Shown here one piece after another: positions 16,379 to 63,215 of a stretch of 64,000 nt of DNA; the stretch's first letter is position 1, and every line of letters begins with the position of its first letter. This DNA comes from Oligoflexia bacterium (lineage in GTDB: Bacteria > Bdellovibrionota > UBA1018). The notes under the pieces were generated by a model. The model did not search any database. It saw only the letters and a list, made by a program, of their open reading frames with translations, and had not been told where the DNA came from. A program made the position numbers and the translations under genes. The stretch lies in assembly GCA_903935335.1 (NCBI GenBank), contig CAIZRG010000036.1, positions 1-64,000 on the forward strand. Reading direction: 5' to 3'.

Positions 16379-17506
16379 CTACGGATGGGATTGTAACATC
16401 TGAGTGTACCAAGTTGGGGGAGTAAACTTTTCCTTGGGAAAGGGAAGACGATTGAGCTCAATCTCATCCATAAAACTTGGAACATAACCCGTAGGAATAA
16501 ACTCTCCTACAATTTTACCATCTGCAGTCTTTCCTCGTTGAACAAATTTAAATATGTCCTGAATTTGATAGCGACCTGAATCATCAATCTCAGGAATGAC
16601 TTCTGTGATATGCGTCACTTTTCTTGTTCCATCATGCATACGCTTAATTTGAACAACAAGATGAATGGCTGAAGCAATTTGACGTCGAATTGCACCAATT
16701 GGAACTTGAGTATCTCCCATCATTGCCAAAGTTTCCAAACGAACGAGTCCATCATAAGGGGTATTGGCATGCGTTGTTCCCATGGACCCTCCATGCCCTG
16801 TGTTCATTGCAGTGATTAAATCAAGTGCCTCAGGACCTCGAACTTCCCCAACCACGATCCTATCCGGCCTTAATCTTAAGGCTGACTTGATCAAATCTCG
16901 AATGGAAACCTGACCTCGCCCCGATTCATCTGCATGCTTTGTTTCAAAGAACACGACGTGCTCCGTATGAATTTTAAGCTCTGAGGAATCTTCAATAATC
17001 AAAAGTCGCTGAGTATTAGGAATTCTTGACCCCAAGACATTTAAAAGAGTCGTTTTTCCAGATCCTGTTCCCCCAGAAATAATAATGTTTTTAGCTAAAT
17101 AGATACAAACATCTAAAAATCTAGCCCCATCCTTAGAAATGGATCCCCGATTCAATAAATCTACAAATGTAGGATTCCCTTTAGAAAATTTCCGAATAGA
17201 TACAGTTGTCCCTTTTCTAGAGCAAGGAGGCAAAACAGCTGCCACACGACTTCCATCAGGTAACCTAGCATCTAAGATAGGATGCTCATCATCGATTTTT
17301 CGACCCACAAATTGAGCAATGTTCCTAACAGCAGCTTGCAAAGCCTGCTCATCCATAAACTTAGCCGAAGTTCGCTCTAAAAGACCTTTTCTTTCAACAA
17401 ACACCTCATTAGGACCGTTAATTAAGACTTCAGATACAGCATCTTCTTCCAGAAATTCTTTTACAGGAGCAAGAAAGGTTCCAACTGAATCTTCAAAAAC
17501 ACCCAA
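16379..17506 (-). CDS. cpaF: CpaF/TadA-type secretion ATPase
   Basis: Hexameric ATPase of the type II/IV secretion superfamily, Tad-pilus branch, powering pilus assembly from the cytoplasm. The N-terminal region carries V-S-E-V-L-I-N-G-P-N-E-V-F-V-E-R; then come D-A-R-L-P-D-G-S-R-V, Walker A G-G-T-G-S-G-K-T-T near residue 143, the Asp and His boxes and T-T-H-A-N-T-P-Y-D. At 375 residues it is a core CpaF without the long N-terminal extension of some family members. Start is a TTG two bases after the stop of the upstream cupredoxin, so translation is probably coupled; the next ATG (near residue 32) would cut into the conserved domain. No other tad/cpa gene is in the window. Confidence 0.93.
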   Translation of the reverse strand: MGVFEDSVGTFLAPVKEFLEEDAVSEVLINGPNEVFVERKGLLERTSAKFMDEQALQAAVRNIAQFVGRKIDDEHPILDARLPDGSRVAAVLPPCSRKGTTVSIRKFSKGNPTFVDLLNRGSISKDGARFLDVCIYLAKNIIISGGTGSGKTTLLNVLGSRIPNTQRLLIIEDSSELKIHTEHVVFFETKHADESGRGQVSIRDLIKSALRLRPDRIVVGEVRGPEALDLITAMNTGHGGSMGTTHANTPYDGLVRLETLAMMGDTQVPIGAIRRQIASAIHLVVQIKRMHDGTRKVTHITEVIPEIDDSGRYQIQDIFKFVQRGKTADGKIVGEFIPTGYVPSFMDEIELNRLPFPKEKFTPPTWYTQMLQSHP

Positions 17507-55523: not shown

Positions 55524-56813
55524 TTGAATAGAAAAAAAAGAATTGTTGTTACCGGGATGTCAATTTCTACGCCTCTTGGAAATACGTTAAATGAAGTTCT
55601 TGAAAATCTTTTCCTAGGAAAATCTGCTATCACAAAGCTTGATCCTCATTTATCCTCTGAAATTGACTGTAAAATTACTGGAAATTTATTAAGCTATGAC
55701 TTTGATTCTGAAATAAAATGTTTAGAAAAAAACATTCCAGAACAAACTTATTTAAAAATGAATAAGTTTCTTAAAATAGCTCCATGGTCCACCTGCATTT
55801 CTTCTTTACTGGGAGTAAAAGCCTGGAATGATGCTGGATTATTTGACTACTGTATTCCACCTGAAAAGATAGGCTCTATTGCAGCAGGCCATAACATCAA
55901 TATGGGCTATATCTTTAAAAACGATGCTCAATTTAAGACGACTCCTCATTTTATTGATCCTTTTTATAGTCTACATGTACTAGATACGGATCATGCAGCC
56001 ACGATCTCTGAGCTCATACAAGCTCGGGGGGCTACATACACTTCAGGAAGTGCTTGTGCAAGCGGTAATACGGCTCTCAGAAGTGCCATTGACGAAATTC
56101 GCTACCATAATCTAAAAGTTGCAATAGTAACAGGCCCAGTTTTTGACTACTCACAAGTTGTACTTCATAGCCTTGCTTTAATGGGAGCCATCAGTACTAA
56201 AAAATTTAATGATACACCCTCAAAAGCAAGCCGTCCATTTGACAGAGACCGAGAAGGATTTGTTCCATCACATGGAGGTGGAGCTTTAGTAATTGAGAGT
56301 CTTGATTGCGCACTGAATCGAGGCGCACGAATTTATGCTGAAATTATTGGAGTTGAAGTCACTTCTGATGCTAGCCATCTTCCTCAACCTTCAGAAAATG
56401 GGCAAATCGCTGTACTGAAAAAAATTTTTAAAAAAACAAAAGTTTACCCTGAACAAATAGACTTCATTTCTGCACATGCAACCTCCACACCTCTGGGGGA
56501 CCTCACTGAGGTTCGAGCAATACAGAAATTCTTTGGGACTCATACAAAAAAAATAAAAATAAATGCACCGAAGTCTTTACTCGGACATACTCTCTGGTCT
56601 TCTGCCATTGTAGAAACCATAGTCGCTATTCTACAAATGAAAGCTGGAAAACTCCACCCCAGCATCAATATTGAAAACTTAGATCCTAAAATAGATCTAG
56701 ATATCTGCACCCACACAGAAACTCATCATCCTATCAATTACTTATTAAAGAATTCTTTTGGATTTGGAGGTATCAATTCTGCATGTATCATTCGATCTGA
56801 ATTGGCGATCTGA
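55524..56813 (+). CDS. Beta-ketoacyl-ACP synthase (FabF/KAS II-like)
   Basis: Condensing enzyme extending acyl chains on ACP. The catalytic Cys178 is in T-S-G-S-A-C-A-S-G-N, with His in A-H-A-T-S-T-P-L-G-D and in K-S-L-L-G-H-T-L-W-S. At 429 residues it is close to FabF. Start is a TTG after GAGGAG. It is not in a fab cluster; its neighbour is a convergent ACP gene, suggesting a dedicated acyl-chain pair outside bulk fatty-acid synthesis. The stop codon lies inside a 13-bp tandem repeat. Confidence 0.88.
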   Translation: MNRKKRIVVTGMSISTPLGNTLNEVLENLFLGKSAITKLDPHLSSEIDCKITGNLLSYDFDSEIKCLEKNIPEQTYLKMNKFLKIAPWSTCISSLLGVKAWNDAGLFDYCIPPEKIGSIAAGHNINMGYIFKNDAQFKTTPHFIDPFYSLHVLDTDHAATISELIQARGATYTSGSACASGNTALRSAIDEIRYHNLKVAIVTGPVFDYSQVVLHSLALMGAISTKKFNDTPSKASRPFDRDREGFVPSHGGGALVIESLDCALNRGARIYAEIIGVEVTSDASHLPQPSENGQIAVLKKIFKKTKVYPEQIDFISAHATSTPLGDLTEVRAIQKFFGTHTKKIKINAPKSLLGHTLWSSAIVETIVAILQMKAGKLHPSINIENLDPKIDLDICTHTETHHPINYLLKNSFGFGGINSACIIRSELAI

Positions 56814-56837
56814 ATTGGCGATCTGAATTGGCGATCT
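56794..56837 (+). repeat. 13-bp tandem repeat across the KAS stop codon
   Basis: The unit GATCTGAATTGGC occurs three times in a row (56794-56806, 56807-56819, 56820-56832) plus five bases of a fourth. The KAS gene stop TGA (56811-56813) falls in the second unit. As 13 is not a multiple of three, copy-number change would alter the protein end. The repeat copies are identical, suggesting a recent duplication. Confidence 0.9.
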
Positions 56838-56863
56838 TAAGATACCGGCAACCTGTATCAGTA

Positions 56864-57124
56864 TCATTTTTTTTCTTTGAGCTTAGAAGCCAGAGAATCA
56901 ATGAGTTCATTAATACTGTTTCCATTGAGTTGATGGAGTTGAACAACTTTAATTCCGAGATCTTTCAAAGTACTTAAAAGAACATGAATAGAATCTAGGC
57001 TATCTAATCCCACCTCTTTTAATGAATGATCTGGATCAAATGCATCTTCATCCCATCCTATAATAATTTTTTTTATGTTTTTTTTAAATATTTTAATGAT
57101 TTCCTCACGATTAATAGATAACAT
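56864..57124 (-). CDS. Acyl carrier protein
   Basis: Small 86-residue four-helix carrier with the phosphopantetheine site G-L-D-S-L-D-S-I (Ser42). The acidic second helix and length agree with ACPs, though the N-terminus is unusually Lys/Ile-rich (K-I-F-K-K-N-I-K-K-I-I-I-G-W). It is convergent with the KAS gene, 50 bases away. With no other fatty-acid genes close by, it likely serves a specialised pathway with that synthase. Confidence 0.85.
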   Translation of the reverse strand: MLSINREEIIKIFKKNIKKIIIGWDEDAFDPDHSLKEVGLDSLDSIHVLLSTLKDLGIKVVQLHQLNGNSINELIDSLASKLKEKK

Positions 57125-57181
57125 ATATTACATATTTTATAATATATTTATCAATTTTTTAACTATTTTATTGGTTCCAGT

Positions 57182-57994
57182 TTGAAAAATTCAACTACTC
57201 TAGACATCCAAGGTCAGACAATACTATCCGCTCTTTTCGCAATGGGAGTTTCTTCCACTCTTGTTTTGACTATATTAGCCATTAACAATATTTCAATGAA
57301 AATTTCAAAAACTCAAGACATTCGACAAGAAGTAAATGATTTTAGAAATTCAATGAATTCTATTACAAACGACAAAATTCTTTGCAATCTGTTCTTTAAA
57401 GACATTCCACTTAACCCAATGAATTCTGTAGAAGCGATTAACTCAATACCATCAGGAGGAAGCATTTCTCCTAGCATGGAGTTTCCAGAAGCAGGCACAA
57501 GCTTACTGCAAGTCGGTACACCTATCTCACGATCATTACAGATATCTTCAATTTCATGGTCAAACGTAGCATATCTTTTGACAGGAAAATTATATTATTA
57601 CCAGAACGGTAAAGTAACTTTTCCAGTTTCTGTTACTCTGAATATAGACTTAAAAATAAGAGATGATGTAAATGCAAAATTATTTGGTTCCTCATCTTTT
57701 AGTGTCTCAATTCCAAATTTAAATTTTTCAACATCTTTTGATCTTTTATCAGATGAAGTTACCCGAATTATTCAATGCAACTCTAATTCTTCTTTAAATA
57801 GTTCCATTGTTTTTAACACGGGGTGGGGAAATTTAAATGATCCACAATGCACTTCTTACAATACTTCCCCGATGGACCCCAATATTCACTGCCCTCAAGG
57901 TCAATACCCTGTCAGCATGACTTATTCTGATATTACAAGCATCCAAAGACTTAAAGTCAAATCATATGTTTGCTGCGGTGTTTCAAATTTTTAA
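57182..57994 (+). CDS. Type IV pilin-like protein A (without Cys module)
   Basis: A short leader ending in Gly11 precedes Q-T-I-L-S-A-L-F-A-M-G-V-S-S-T-L-V-L-T-I-L, a pilin-like hydrophobic helix; the usual Glu at +5 is Ser, so it may be an atypical or GspK-like minor pilin. The C-terminal part (W-G-N-L-N-D-P-Q-C ... C-P-Q-G-Q-Y-P-V-S-M ... Y-V-C-C-G-V) is clearly related to the ends of the two pilins downstream but lacks their ten-Cys insert. Start is TTG with a weak ribosome site. First of six co-directional genes in an A/T-rich block. Confidence 0.65.
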   Translation: MKNSTTLDIQGQTILSALFAMGVSSTLVLTILAINNISMKISKTQDIRQEVNDFRNSMNSITNDKILCNLFFKDIPLNPMNSVEAINSIPSGGSISPSMEFPEAGTSLLQVGTPISRSLQISSISWSNVAYLLTGKLYYYQNGKVTFPVSVTLNIDLKIRDDVNAKLFGSSSFSVSIPNLNFSTSFDLLSDEVTRIIQCNSNSSLNSSIVFNTGWGNLNDPQCTSYNTSPMDPNIHCPQGQYPVSMTYSDITSIQRLKVKSYVCCGVSNF

Positions 57995-58053
57995 AATTTT
58001 ATTGCACTAAATTGTTCAATCATTAAAAAGTTGATAAAAAATAATTTTAAATT

Positions 58054-59040
58054 ATGATTAAAATCTACTTACTCATTAAAATGAAAAAAATAATATTTTT
58101 TAAAAATCACTGGAATCATGGAATGACTCTCATTGAAACCATGATTTCCGGAGCGTTAATTTCTGTTGTAATTTTAGCTACGTCGAATGTTGTTGGAATT
58201 GCTGCAAAATTAAGAAAATCCTCAGTGAGTAAACAAGCTTTATTTGATTTTAAATCTAAAGTAAGAAATGCAATCAATGATCTTTCAAGCTGTGTCCTGA
58301 TCACATCTCCTACAGCAATTGATCCATCCAATTTCTCAGTTCAAGCACTACCTCAATTATCTATTCCAGGCTACACTTATGATACTAGTTCAAACAATAA
58401 AATCCAAGACAATGTAACTATTAAGACAATTTCATTTCAAAAAAATCTTGATTTAAATTCAAAGTTTGGATCAACCAACTTCACAATTAATTCTGTTAAC
58501 TATTGGCCAACTTTAGGTACTATCAATATTGGAATTGAAATCATTGGATTTGGGATCGGATCAGGAAGTACAAGCACAATCAATTACGCTTTTCCTATCA
58601 CTATTACTTTTCAATCATCTTCAAGTACTGGATTCAAATGGACTATTGGACAATGCTCAGCAAAACTTCCTGAATCTTTTACAAATTTAGGCTGGAGTTC
58701 AGAAAATCAATCTGACCCACACCTTTGCAAAAATTTTGAAATCTCTGCAAACACTGCGATGACTTGTCCAGCCGGAATGTACTTGATAGGACCCAGTCAG
58801 ACACTTATTAAAGTCCCTATTACAATTTATTCTCCATCTTGCAGTTGCAATGGAAGCTGTAAAGGATGTGCCTGTATTGCTGGGTCTTCATGTAGTGCTT
58901 CTTGTGATTCAAATGGAAATGTATCCGTACCTTTCAACCATTGCATGGGAACTTGTAATGCTTCCCCACAATGCAATGGTACTAATACAACTATAGATGT
59001 AGAAAAAATTTCAATTACTTGTTGCAAAGTATTAAAATAA
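58054..59040 (+). CDS. Minor type IV pilin B with ten-cysteine module
   Basis: Classical prepilin N-terminus: a basic leader, cleavage after Gly in N-H-G, then M-T-L-I-E-T-M-I-S-G with Glu at +5 and a hydrophobic helix. The body is beta-rich. Near the end is C-P-A-G-M-Y-L-I, then a module of ten Cys with spacings 1, 3, 2, 1, 5, 3, 12, 3 and 5, followed by I-S-I-T-C-C. Pilin C has the same module with identical spacing. An internal ATG (58081) gives a more usual 14-residue leader and may be the true start. Prepilin peptidase is not in the window. Confidence 0.8.
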   Translation: MIKIYLLIKMKKIIFFKNHWNHGMTLIETMISGALISVVILATSNVVGIAAKLRKSSVSKQALFDFKSKVRNAINDLSSCVLITSPTAIDPSNFSVQALPQLSIPGYTYDTSSNNKIQDNVTIKTISFQKNLDLNSKFGSTNFTINSVNYWPTLGTINIGIEIIGFGIGSGSTSTINYAFPITITFQSSSSTGFKWTIGQCSAKLPESFTNLGWSSENQSDPHLCKNFEISANTAMTCPAGMYLIGPSQTLIKVPITIYSPSCSCNGSCKGCACIAGSSCSASCDSNGNVSVPFNHCMGTCNASPQCNGTNTTIDVEKISITCCKVLK

Positions 59041-59120
59041 ATACTTAAATAGTATATAAGTAGTTTCACATTTTTTTAAAACTGTGCTGGTAAAAAATAA
59101 TTTATTTAAATATTAATAAT

Positions 59121-60128
59121 ATGGAAAAATTAAACAAAAAAAAGAATAAACAAAAATTTAGTTGATTTTTTTTTATTCTTTTTTTTGTTTTATTTATTTA
59201 TTTTAAAAACAAAACAAAAGACTTAATTAATCCAATAAGTTCTGAAAAAACTACTGAGATTGAAAAAAAACTAGATGAGTCAAATTATTTAGAAATTAAG
59301 CTCCCAAATGAAATTGTAGCAGGAGAGTGCAATCAAATACAAGTAACGCTAAAAGATCAAACAAATAAAGAAATTTACTCTAATTATGATCTTTTTTTAA
59401 AAATATTAGACTCTAAAAATAATGCAATCACTTTATTTGAAAAAAATACTTGCGGTGTAACAGACTCTCCTACTCTTAAATTTAAAATTTTAAAAAAAAC
59501 AAATTCTTCTTATTTTTACACTATATTTTATGCAGTTGGTCCTATTAAAACTGAAGCAGTTGACTCCACAGGTTCTTCTATAAAAACACAGTTTGAAAAC
59601 ACTCCATTAGTTCAACCAAATTTTAAAAAAACAAAAATAATATTTTCTAAACTACCAAAATATTTTATTGAAGGCGAACCTTTTTCTGTAGATATCATTA
59701 TTTCTGATATTCTTGGAATTCCATTAAATTCAACTCTAGAACCAGTTAAACTTTCTTTAAAAGTTGATGAAAAAAATACCTCTTTACCACTAGGAGAAGC
59801 TAAGGTAGTTAATGGAGTTGCAGAATTTAAGAACCTTTTAATTGATGAATTAGATGGAAATAAAGCTCAACTTGTTGCATCTATTGGAGATAATGTCTTA
59901 ACCAGTGATTCAATTATTAAAGGCACATTCAAGAGCCGAACAATTCAAGTTGAAGTCGTAGGAATGCAAACTTTCTCTGGTCATCTAATTACACCTTCTA
60001 GTATTGAAGTCATTAATAAAATTTGGAAGATTGAAAAAGTAAACTCAAAAAAAACAGTTAACATTAACGGAGTCAACTATTCTATTGAATTTAAAAACTT
60101 TAATAGTGTCATTCTTAAACCAATGTAA
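59121..60128 (+). pseudogene. Membrane-anchored beta-sandwich protein gene with one in-frame TGA
   Basis: From ATG 59121 the frame reads M-E-K-L-N-K-K-K-N-K-Q-K-F-S, then TGA (59163-59165), then continues F-F-F-I-L-F-F-V-L-F-I-Y-F-K-N-K without another stop for over 300 codons to TAA at 60126-60128. The two sides together make one basic-then-hydrophobic N-terminal anchor. Trp (TGG) is the simplest original codon. There is no ATG, GTG or TTG after the TGA that would keep the anchor. The rest looks like two or three Ig-like beta domains (E-G-E-P-F-S-V-D-I-I-I-S-D and V-V-N-G-V-A-E-F-K-N-L). Pilin C follows seven bases after the stop. May be a nonsense mutation, readthrough or a sequencing error; TGA is a normal stop in other genes here. 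Confidence 0.75.
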
Positions 60129-60135
60129 TTATAAA

Positions 60136-61119
60136 ATGATTAATATTTTATATTTTAATAAAAATTTTAAGATATTTTTCTTAAAATTATGGGTATCTCA
60201 AAAAGGTTATAGCCTCATTGAGTTAATGGTTGCACTATCTATCGGAAGTATGATGGCACTTGGACTTTCGAAGTCTCTTGAATATACCTCCAAGTCATTA
60301 AATACAAATACAATCAATCAGGATCAAACTGAATTTCAAAGAAAAATAAATAATGCTTTGAGCAACCCAACTTATTGCACTCAGCTGATTGCAAGTTCAT
60401 TAGATCCTAGCTCAACCAGTAATCAACCTATATCTCTGCAAGCCGGAAACAATTTGTATAACGGAAATAGCTCCCCGTCTATCAGTAAAGATCTTAGAAT
60501 TAATTCATTATATTTTTTAAAAACTAACGACTCATTTTTAAATGGAGGTTCAAATTTTTACACATCACAAAACACCAACTATTGGCCTTTGAGTGGAAAC
60601 ATTGTTGTTAATATAGATAATCTATCAGTTTCTAGCAATCGATCTTACGGAAAAAGATCTATTAGTTATACTTTTTCGATTAATTTGACTTTGCAAAGAC
60701 CCGCATCTGGAGGTTCATGGACTATCAGAAGTTGCTCTACAGAAATCCCTGAAAATATAATAAACTCTGGCTGGAACACGGCGGACACTTTAGATCCGAA
60801 TTACTGCACTACCCTTACTACAACTTCAGGTGATAACATTATTTGCCCCAGTGGCATGTACCTAATATCACAAGTGCAATCAACTCAATACATTTCTAGA
60901 ATATCTTATACCCCACAATGCGATTGTGTCGGTAGTTGTAAAGGCTGTGCTTGTGTCGCAGGTTCAGCTTGCAGCTCTATGTGTGATTCTTCAGGAAATC
61001 CAAACGTAACAGCTAATAGCTGTATGGGAACTTGCAATGCTAGTGCAAGTTGTAACGGTTTTCCTGTTATAGATTCAGTTCATAAGCTAACTGTAAAATG
61101 CTGTTATGCTAAAAAATAA
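60136..61119 (+). CDS. Minor type IV pilin C with ten-cysteine module
   Basis: Start at ATG 60136, seven bases after the previous stop; a TTG at 60085 inside that gene is less likely. A leader of about 24 residues ends in Q-K-G, followed by Y-S-L-I-E-L-M-V-A-L-S-I-G, the standard N-methylation segment with Glu at +5. The C-terminal third has the same W-N-x-x-D-x-L-D-P and C-P-S-G-M-Y-L-I elements, the same ten-Cys spacing and the same final C-C pair as pilin B. It is thus a paralogue and probable partner in one pilus tip or pseudopilus. Its end overlaps the next gene by 14 bases. Confidence 0.82.
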   Translation: MINILYFNKNFKIFFLKLWVSQKGYSLIELMVALSIGSMMALGLSKSLEYTSKSLNTNTINQDQTEFQRKINNALSNPTYCTQLIASSLDPSSTSNQPISLQAGNNLYNGNSSPSISKDLRINSLYFLKTNDSFLNGGSNFYTSQNTNYWPLSGNIVVNIDNLSVSSNRSYGKRSISYTFSINLTLQRPASGGSWTIRSCSTEIPENIINSGWNTADTLDPNYCTTLTTTSGDNIICPSGMYLISQVQSTQYISRISYTPQCDCVGSCKGCACVAGSACSSMCDSSGNPNVTANSCMGTCNASASCNGFPVIDSVHKLTVKCCYAKK

Positions 61120-62164
61120 AACACAAGAAATAGAAGAATTATCTATCCATAAAGGAATATCAATATGCTCTATGATTGGACTTCACACCATTATTTGGTG
61201 GATGTCTAAAGGAAATGACGGATTTATTATAAAAAATTGGGATAAATATGAGTTTATTCTAACTCCTTATGTTCTTTTTTTTGGATGGTTATCTTTATCA
61301 TTTGCATTTACTTCAGGATTTTCTTTCCATCTTTGGATTTTTAATAAATCCAATTTCCCTAACCTATTCTCAATTATAAAAAGAGTTCTTTTTTTGTTTA
61401 TTGTAGGTTGGTTTTTAAATCCAAAAAGTTGGTATATTTTTCAATTTTTATCAGTTTCGATGGCATTATCATACTTATTGATCAAATATTTTTGTATAGA
61501 GTTTATTTGGATTTTTACATTTTTATCCCCTTTTGGAGCAAACATTTTAAGATACTTTCATCTGCCCTGGGAGGGCTCTTACTTGGAAGCAATACTAATT
61601 GGAGATAAGAATGGTCTCTATTTCTGGCCTTTTTTCCCATGGTATTTTCTTTTTGGATGCGGAATATTGTTTAGAGATATAAAGTTAAAGGTATCAAAAA
61701 AATCTAGAAACTTAATGATCAAAATTTTTTTAATTTTATCATTATCTTTTTTAAATATTGGTGAATTTTTTAAAATAATAATGCCAACCATAGATCTTAC
61801 TCATTTTTGGGGCACAGGTATTTTTCAACCTAATCTTTTTCAGTTTTTTTCTTGGTCAGCATTAATCATTAATAGTTTTATCGCAGTAGAGTTTGTCTCT
61901 AAGTTCAACTTTAAAAAAATATTTTACGCATTTAAAAAAATTGGAGAATACAGTTTAATTATTTACATTATCCACTATAAATTTTTCGTGAGTTATGTTT
62001 TTTTATATAAGAACGATGATTTTTCCAGACTATTTATTTTAATTTTACTTCAAATTTTATTTTCAATTTTTATTGGAGTTATTTTAGATTTTTTTATAAA
62101 AAAAGTTTATATGGAAAAACAAATAGAGAAAAAAAAGAATGCATGGCAAACTAGCAATATTTAA
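61106..62164 (+). CDS. Multi-pass membrane protein, acyltransferase-like
   Basis: About ten membrane helices in 352 residues. The opening E-E-L-S-I-H-K-G-I-S-I-C-S-M-I-G-L-H resembles the first helix and catalytic-type His of DUF1624/acyltransferase-3 enzymes (R-G-x-x-I-x-x-M-x-x-x-H). Helices with P-F-F-P-W-Y-F-L-F-G-C-G and a late Y-S-L-I-I-Y-I-I-H-Y support that superfamily. It would O- or N-acylate a surface sugar or lipid, but substrate is unknown. It overlaps both neighbours, so it is tightly tied to the pilin block. Very A/T-rich. Confidence 0.6.
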   Translation: MLKNKTQEIEELSIHKGISICSMIGLHTIIWWMSKGNDGFIIKNWDKYEFILTPYVLFFGWLSLSFAFTSGFSFHLWIFNKSNFPNLFSIIKRVLFLFIVGWFLNPKSWYIFQFLSVSMALSYLLIKYFCIEFIWIFTFLSPFGANILRYFHLPWEGSYLEAILIGDKNGLYFWPFFPWYFLFGCGILFRDIKLKVSKKSRNLMIKIFLILSLSFLNIGEFFKIIMPTIDLTHFWGTGIFQPNLFQFFSWSALIINSFIAVEFVSKFNFKKIFYAFKKIGEYSLIIYIIHYKFFVSYVFLYKNDDFSRLFILILLQILFSIFIGVILDFFIKKVYMEKQIEKKKNAWQTSNI

Positions 62165-63215
62165 TCCAATTTTTTCAAAAAAAATAGACCTGCTTATTTT
62201 TATAACTCCAACGATTATAGCTTCTATATTAATACTTGCTTGCTTCAGATTGAGTTTTTATTTCCCAGTATCTTTCTCTTATGAGAATATTCAAATTTAT
62301 TTCTATAGCGTATACACTGTTTTTTTAATGGTTCCACATTCTTACGCTACTTTTTATAAAGTTCATGACGATAGAACTATGTTTGATGGAGCTTATCAGA
62401 TTGAGTTCAAGTATTTTTTTTTGTTGGTGTTTTTTTCAGGTATTGTTTTTTTTAAATTACCAAGAATTTTTTCTGTTGTTTTAAGTTACGCTGATATTTT
62501 TCACCATGTCAGACAACAATATGGGTGGATGGTTCTTTCTCAGCGAAGGCAATTGACTCTGTCTACTCATGAATCCATCCTGGATAAATTAATGATTTAT
62601 AATGTCATGATTACTCCTTTGCTTTGGTGGCATTTCAACCCAACGAATTTTGGATGGATTCAAAAAAATGATCTTTTATTTTTTAATTCCCCTTTGTGTG
62701 GAGCAATTACTATTGGGATTCATTGGATTTTTAATTTATATTTTTTCTCAATATATTTATATTGGTATTTAAAAGGAAAGCAGTTCAACTTAGGGAAAAT
62801 TTTAATTATTTTAAGCACATGGTTTTCATTTTACTTTGGAATTTTGAATTTTGAGGACGGAGTTAAAAGTTTACTAGTGACTTTTAATCATACTATTCCT
62901 TATCTTTTTCTAGTGTATAGATACATCGGCAGTCCTAACAGGCTAGGCCACAAGAGTCCCAGAGTTTCCAATAAAAGCTGGATGTCGTTTTATCTCCCTC
63001 TAGTTTTTATTGGACTTTTAATTAGTTCTTTGCAATTTTTAAAAATTAAAAAACTGCCTCTTTTAGATGGTGGAATCGCATTTGCTGCAGTAACTGGAGG
63101 AATATTTCACTACTTTTTTGACACTTTTATTTGGAGATTCCATAGAAAAGAAACAAGATTAACAGAGTTTTTAGATATACAGGGTCAGAGATTTAAAAAA
63201 TTAGGTCATCAGTGA
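62139..63215 (+). CDS. Multi-pass membrane protein with conserved-looking histidines, unknown family
   Basis: About eight helices in 358 residues with polar clusters at helix ends: V-P-H-S-Y-A-T-F-Y-K-V-H-D-D-R, A-D-I-F-H-H-V-R-Q-Q-Y-G-W, F-N-H-T-I-P-Y and F-H-Y-F-F-D-T-F-I-W-R-F-H. Repeated His/Asp near membrane faces are typical of metal-dependent membrane enzymes (hydroxylases, Brp/Blh-like oxygenases), but I cannot assign a family. The start overlaps the acyltransferase-like gene by 26 bases, and its end overlaps the convergent next gene by seven bases. Last gene of the A/T-rich block. Confidence 0.6.
   Translation: MHGKLAIFNPIFSKKIDLLIFITPTIIASILILACFRLSFYFPVSFSYENIQIYFYSVYTVFLMVPHSYATFYKVHDDRTMFDGAYQIEFKYFFLLVFFSGIVFFKLPRIFSVVLSYADIFHHVRQQYGWMVLSQRRQLTLSTHESILDKLMIYNVMITPLLWWHFNPTNFGWIQKNDLLFFNSPLCGAITIGIHWIFNLYFFSIYLYWYLKGKQFNLGKILIILSTWFSFYFGILNFEDGVKSLLVTFNHTIPYLFLVYRYIGSPNRLGHKSPRVSNKSWMSFYLPLVFIGLLISSLQFLKIKKLPLLDGGIAFAAVTGGIFHYFFDTFIWRFHRKETRLTEFLDIQGQRFKKLGHQ

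Follow-up and report, generated by a model that had tools for sequence, protein, structure and literature searches.

We analyzed a 64,000-nucleotide stretch of DNA (hereafter, the window) from an Oligoflexia bacterium, whose source assembly comprises 2.6 Mb in 59 contigs and is 94% complete. Toward its downstream end, the window encodes three pilin-like proteins, named A, B, and C, together with an exported protein, named X, and a membrane protein that resembles acyltransferases. The genes and features of this locus are as follows:

57182..57994, + strand: pilin A, 270 aa from a TTG start; a head and a short predicted C-terminal β domain without the Cys module
58054..59040, + strand: pilin B, 328 aa; a head with C57 and a predicted C-terminal β domain carrying a ten-Cys insert
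58840..58974, + strand: ten-Cys module of B from Cys1 to Cys10, residues 263-307
59121..60128, + strand: gene X, one N-terminal membrane helix followed by a predicted all-β (perhaps Ig-like) exported protein
60085..61119, + strand: pilin C, layout as in B, 344 aa from the listed TTG
60919..61053, + strand: ten-Cys module of C from Cys1 to Cys10, residues 279-323
61106..62164, + strand: membrane acyltransferase-like protein with a sub-threshold Acyl_transf_3 match, overlapping the 3' end of C

The initial annotation gave the gene order as A-B-C; the actual order is A-B-X-C, with the previously unlisted gene X (59121-60128) placed between B and C. The likelier start of pilin C is the ATG at 60136, which yields a protein of 327 aa. 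The acyltransferase-like ORF, with a Pfam Acyl_transf_3 score of 15.3 bits against a cut-off of 31, is a possible but unproven member of the same operon. The region at approximately 56900-63200 of the window is AT-rich, with a GC content of 25-33% compared with 37-42% in the flanks. The pilins are immediately preceded, at 55524-57124, by genes for a ketosynthase-like protein and a small acyl carrier protein on the opposite strand, and a short sequence (about GAATTGGCGATCT) is present in three tandem copies at 56790-56845, across the end of the ketosynthase-like gene.

The description of A, B, and C as three paralogous pilins was borne out, as all three ORFs are present and A was aligned with B and C by hhalign with a probability of 96.9 (E 1.6e-10, 223 columns). 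The prepilin sites are IQG^QTILS in A, NHG^MTLIE in B, and QKG^YSLIE in C. In B and C, the class III (prepilin) signal is identified by its motif and by the Pfam/TIGR N_methyl models, while in A it is recognized via alignment and not via HMM; with the Pfam N_methyl cut-off of 21.2 bits, C passes (30.9 bits), B falls just below (16 bits), and A is unrecognized. Beyond the methylation motif, no meaningful Pfam or NCBIfam match was found elsewhere in the three proteins, and none of them passes a GspH-K or Tad model from these libraries, the Tad models giving nothing at E≤1. Glu5 is kept in B and C and is absent from A, which has S5 in this genome and T5 in its orthologue from G012, a genome representing another genus of the same family. 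The ends that the three pilins were said to share are partly the same: each of the proteins has an exact CPxGxY motif and ends in CC, whereas the proposed W-x-x-x-D-P-x-C motif is approximate only, reading W-x4-DP-x-C in A and W-x6-DP-x-x-C in the other two.

The ten-Cys module of about 45 residues, initially described as identical in B and C, is identical in its Cys spacing (2,4,3,2,6,4,13,4,6 from Cys1 to Cys10 in both proteins) but not in its sequence, in which 33 of 48 positions (69%) are the same, compared with ~31% in the remaining aligned parts of the two proteins. Outside the Cys residues, 23 of the 38 module positions are conserved between B and C, which is above the rest of the pilin. 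The insert is indeed absent in A: the C-terminus of A can be aligned up to and beyond the module, leaving a clean gap. At the nucleotide level, the Cys codons differ between the two modules in half of the cases, the third codon positions are 44% identical compared with 37% expected from composition, and dN is 0.31 with saturated dS. The high protein identity of the module combined with saturated dS and near-random third positions indicates that the duplication of B and C is old and that the module has been under purifying selection. Thus, the possibility that B and C are recent duplicates of no functional meaning, put forward in the initial annotation as a potential objection, is excluded. The module has no known domain family among Pfam, NCBIfam, PHROGs, and PDB sequences, in agreement with the initial impression; a tailspike (E 0.36) and aerolysin (E above 1) were rejected as its relatives, both matches being at chance level.

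To describe the position of the module, we used an AlphaFold2 model of B based on 17 sequences (mean pLDDT 69, pTM 0.50), which portrays B as a normal pilin with an additional small C-terminal β domain. The predicted long helix (residues 7-65) is followed by a β head with pLDDT mostly of 70-90, and the C-terminal strands 223-240 and 290-306 (model numbering) flank the module, which would form a loop between the two long hairpin strands of the small C-terminal domain. The module itself is modeled with low confidence (pLDDT 43-53). In A, the host hairpin is kept without the module loop. A Foldseek search with the whole B model against PDB gave nothing at E≤0.001, although a model with pTM of 0.50 makes this search uninformative. 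The total numbers of Cys residues are even in all three proteins, namely six in A (two in the head and four in the tail), 16 in B, and 16 in mature C; the B copy in G012 is a caveat to this arithmetic, as it has an odd total of 17. The insert brings ten Cys residues, while the two head and four tail residues of the A type stay in place. Since the added number is even and the host Cys residues are undisturbed, the module can most simply be regarded as a self-contained unit that would be held by five disulfides. The clean insertion into the modeled hairpin, the even number of added Cys, and the insert-free hairpin of A all favor the original proposal of a disulfide-rich domain grafted onto pilins.

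Gene X contains an in-frame TGA at codon 15, the remainder of the frame being open. The only clear relative of X, found in G012, has Trp at this position (S-W-F-F), which points to either a Trp-to-stop change or an assembly error in the window. An alternative genetic code was rejected, as TGA ends 8 out of 27 long ORFs of the window and Trp is encoded there by TGG 204 times. The X protein has a weak match to Pfam MG4 (18.7 bits, below the cut-off of 24.7), and its structure model, with pLDDT of 39, is too poor for use.

The profile of the C-terminal domain has matches in only 2 of the 369 genomes of the phylum, namely the studied genome and G012, and the profile of X has matches in the same 2 of the 55 genomes of the order, plus one weak hit; thus, A, B, and X travel together. 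Moreover, X and the module are linked in both genomes that hold them. In G012, where the region has ordinary base composition, A is divergently oriented from B, and downstream of B the contig breaks off in the initial part of X. The module of the G012 B protein is diverged and Cys-rich, with 11 of the 17 Cys residues of the protein and a single final Cys. A constant A-B-C arrangement of the homologues, a point that the initial annotation had suggested checking, was not confirmed: in G012, A, B, and X are present and C was not seen, the contig ending inside X, and C is known from one genome. Two pattern scans of GTDB species contigs, as well as searches of viral contigs, plasmids, and phages, revealed no relatives of the module. 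A match to the module profile in G039 was rejected, being a metalloprotease-like ORF of which the Cys-rich stretch alone matches.

The distribution of the pilin head is much wider. The head profile, built without the hydrophobic helix, matches open frames 170-1001 codons long in 113 of the 369 phylum genomes, and no Pfam model matches this family. When the pilins are aligned with relatives in their bacterial family, two columns only are invariant; both are Cys, the first lying 57 residues past the cleavage Gly (+57) in almost all members and the second at ~155-188. Among 37 head-family ORFs, 33 are connected by their heads (without the hydrophobic helix) in one similarity group, a unity that is partly due to selection since the ORFs, a few of them fragments, were gathered by similarity to this head; the tails of the same 37 ORFs fall into 14 groups at E≤0.01. 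The common head with mutually unrelated tails in the sampled members identifies the ten-Cys module as one rare tail. The pairing of a Glu5-less pilin with a Glu5 pilin is also found in head-family loci of two other genomes, G008 and G011. The G008 pair precedes a major-type pilin and PilB-like and PilT-like ATPases, which ties the head family to type IVa pili (T4aP). A second tandem head-family pair is encoded on another contig of the studied genome (C40; L055 5391-6557 and 6672-7742); these pilins have a different, Cys-rich tail with 14 Cys each, are separated by several kb from GspD/E/F genes of a T2SS-like cluster, and, as judged by eye, adjoin an acyltransferase-3-like ORF.

The assembly of type 4 filaments begins with a tip complex that is capped by a subunit without Glu5 (PMC10191384). 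We consider it somewhat probable that A, B, and C are minor pilins forming such a complex, in which A acts as the cap, B and C each display a binding module with five disulfides, and X is perhaps a partner. Since A has no Glu5 in both genomes, B and C keep it, and the same pairing occurs at two other loci, A was placed as the cap and would be outermost in the helical bundle, with B and C docked under it. Each of the latter two pilins would present its module outward, at the β-hairpin end of the C-terminal domain, most likely as a surface that resists proteases and binds another cell or a polymer. Gene X would probably encode a membrane-tethered or released tip partner, a relationship that we infer. 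The loss of Glu5 in A and the bulk of the extra modules that these minor pilins carry lend indirect support to the tip location, which was suggested earlier together with an adhesive role. The most likely use of the module would be adhesion or recognition, in analogy to Streptococcus sanguinis PilB (PMC8179133) and the Kil tips (PMC12075869). The genome has PilB/PilT/PilC-like genes, and the type IV pilus (T4P), T2SS, and Tad genes are all present; the A-B-X-C locus is located away from the T4P machinery genes, and thus the filament that these pilins serve is uncertain. A CpaF-like gene is found in the window at 16379-17506, 40 kb from the pilins.

A different assignment, in which the pilins belong to a T2SS pseudopilus or a Tad-like system and push or recognize a substrate rather than adhere, appears rather improbable. 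The genome encodes Tad ATPases and a T2SS cluster of the GspD/E/F type, a second pair of Cys-rich pilins is found close to T2SS genes, and a set of Glu5-less and Glu5 subunits is also compatible with GspK/I/J; however, the head-family relatives in G008 adjoin PilA-, PilB-, and PilT-like genes, and A, B, and C pass none of the GspH-K or Tad models. Somewhat greater weight, though still that of an unlikely explanation, can be given to the module as a structural stabilizer, the disulfides of which would harden the exposed tip end against force or proteases without a specific ligand. Such a role would suit a module that is small, dense in Cys, and hardly able to accommodate a large binding site, in a head family where Cys-rich tails are frequent, and disulfide-rich predicted tips have been noted in Tad systems (PMC12075869). 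Yet the conservation of 23 of the 38 non-Cys positions between B and C, above that in the rest of the pilin, suggests more than a scaffold.

The metal-binding cap offered by the initial annotation as an alternative to an adhesin is unsupported, and we regard it as very improbable. It would be in line with the CxC and CxxC spacings in the module; on the other hand, the proteins are exported to a presumably oxidizing location and have even Cys counts in A, B, and C, which favors disulfides, the ten extra Cys residues were gained together as one unit, His, Asp, and Glu are very scarce in the module, and no similarity to a metal-binding family was found in Pfam or NCBIfam. There is equally little to recommend the view that the locus is a decaying lineage-specific island without current function. 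Although the in-frame TGA in X, the low GC content of the AT-rich stretch, and the very sparse distribution could all be read in this way, the A, B, and C genes are intact, the module has been strongly constrained since the duplication, and A, B, and X are linked in a second genus with ordinary composition there; moreover, the TGA in X could reflect a recent event or an error in the assembly.

The tip complex reading can be compared with several known systems. Modular pilins, for which 264 architectures have been counted, present grafted modules including an adhesin (PMC8179133); PilB and PilC of S. sanguinis, for example, are bimodular type IV pilins, the extra module of PilB being a vWA domain, and CofB and GspK are also classed as modular although their extra modules have no signatures (PMC8179133). 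The B and C pilins likewise combine an N-terminal pilin module with an extra module that lies outside the pilin fold, as indicated by the clean insertion relative to A and by the hairpin position in the model, and they share the proposed tip position. The likeness to GspK extends to an extra domain inserted within the pilin sheet (PMC8179133); here, however, the ten-Cys insert is predicted to lie in the hairpin of a second β domain, and it occurs in two neighboring paralogs. In contrast to the vWA domain of PilB, the module matches no recognized functional domain family in Pfam, NCBIfam, PHROGs, or PDB sequences; membership in such a family is usual but not strictly required in modular pilins. 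The KilL/M/N proteins of Myxococcus xanthus, which form predation tips, vary in their C-terminal domains and have many predicted disulfides (PMC12075869), and they share with A/B/C the clustering of minor pilins and the heteromeric tip proposed here; however, they belong to the Tad minor pilins and have a link to a needleless T3SS, whereas A/B/C, the class III signal of which is of the T4aP/T2SS type, have no such linkage. A single Glu5-less cap subunit with Glu5 subunits is also characteristic of PilHIJK/GspHIJK, the core tip pilins of T4aP and T2SS, from which A/B/C differ in their heads and tails, their match to the HIJK models being not significant beyond the N-terminal helix. The modular-pilin principle is already known (PMC8179133), and the new elements are the module, for which the searched libraries contain no family, and the head that recurs across the phylum with tails unrelated to each other.

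A broader and more tentative reading, which we regard as possible but doubtful, is that the phylum-wide head is a universal socket for unrelated tails, the exchange of which retargets pilus tips, the module being a new disulfide-rich adhesin fold that is used twice in the A-B-X-C tip complex. If these proposals are true, they would provide a small stand-alone disulfide-rich binding module and a pilin head family outside the Pfam models with tails exchanged across the whole phylum, and one could ask whether the tail type predicts the pilus attachment target of a bacterium. The PilV shufflon-type and tail-fibre-like pilin adhesins have a constant head and exchanged C-terminal tails, to which the head family bears a resemblance only. 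As judged by eye, the tails of the head family include repeat fibres and S74-like chaperone ends. For instance, the tails of two members (L025 1420-2511 and L028 352-1803) end in a stretch that resembles an S74-type intramolecular chaperone, as in phage tail fibres.
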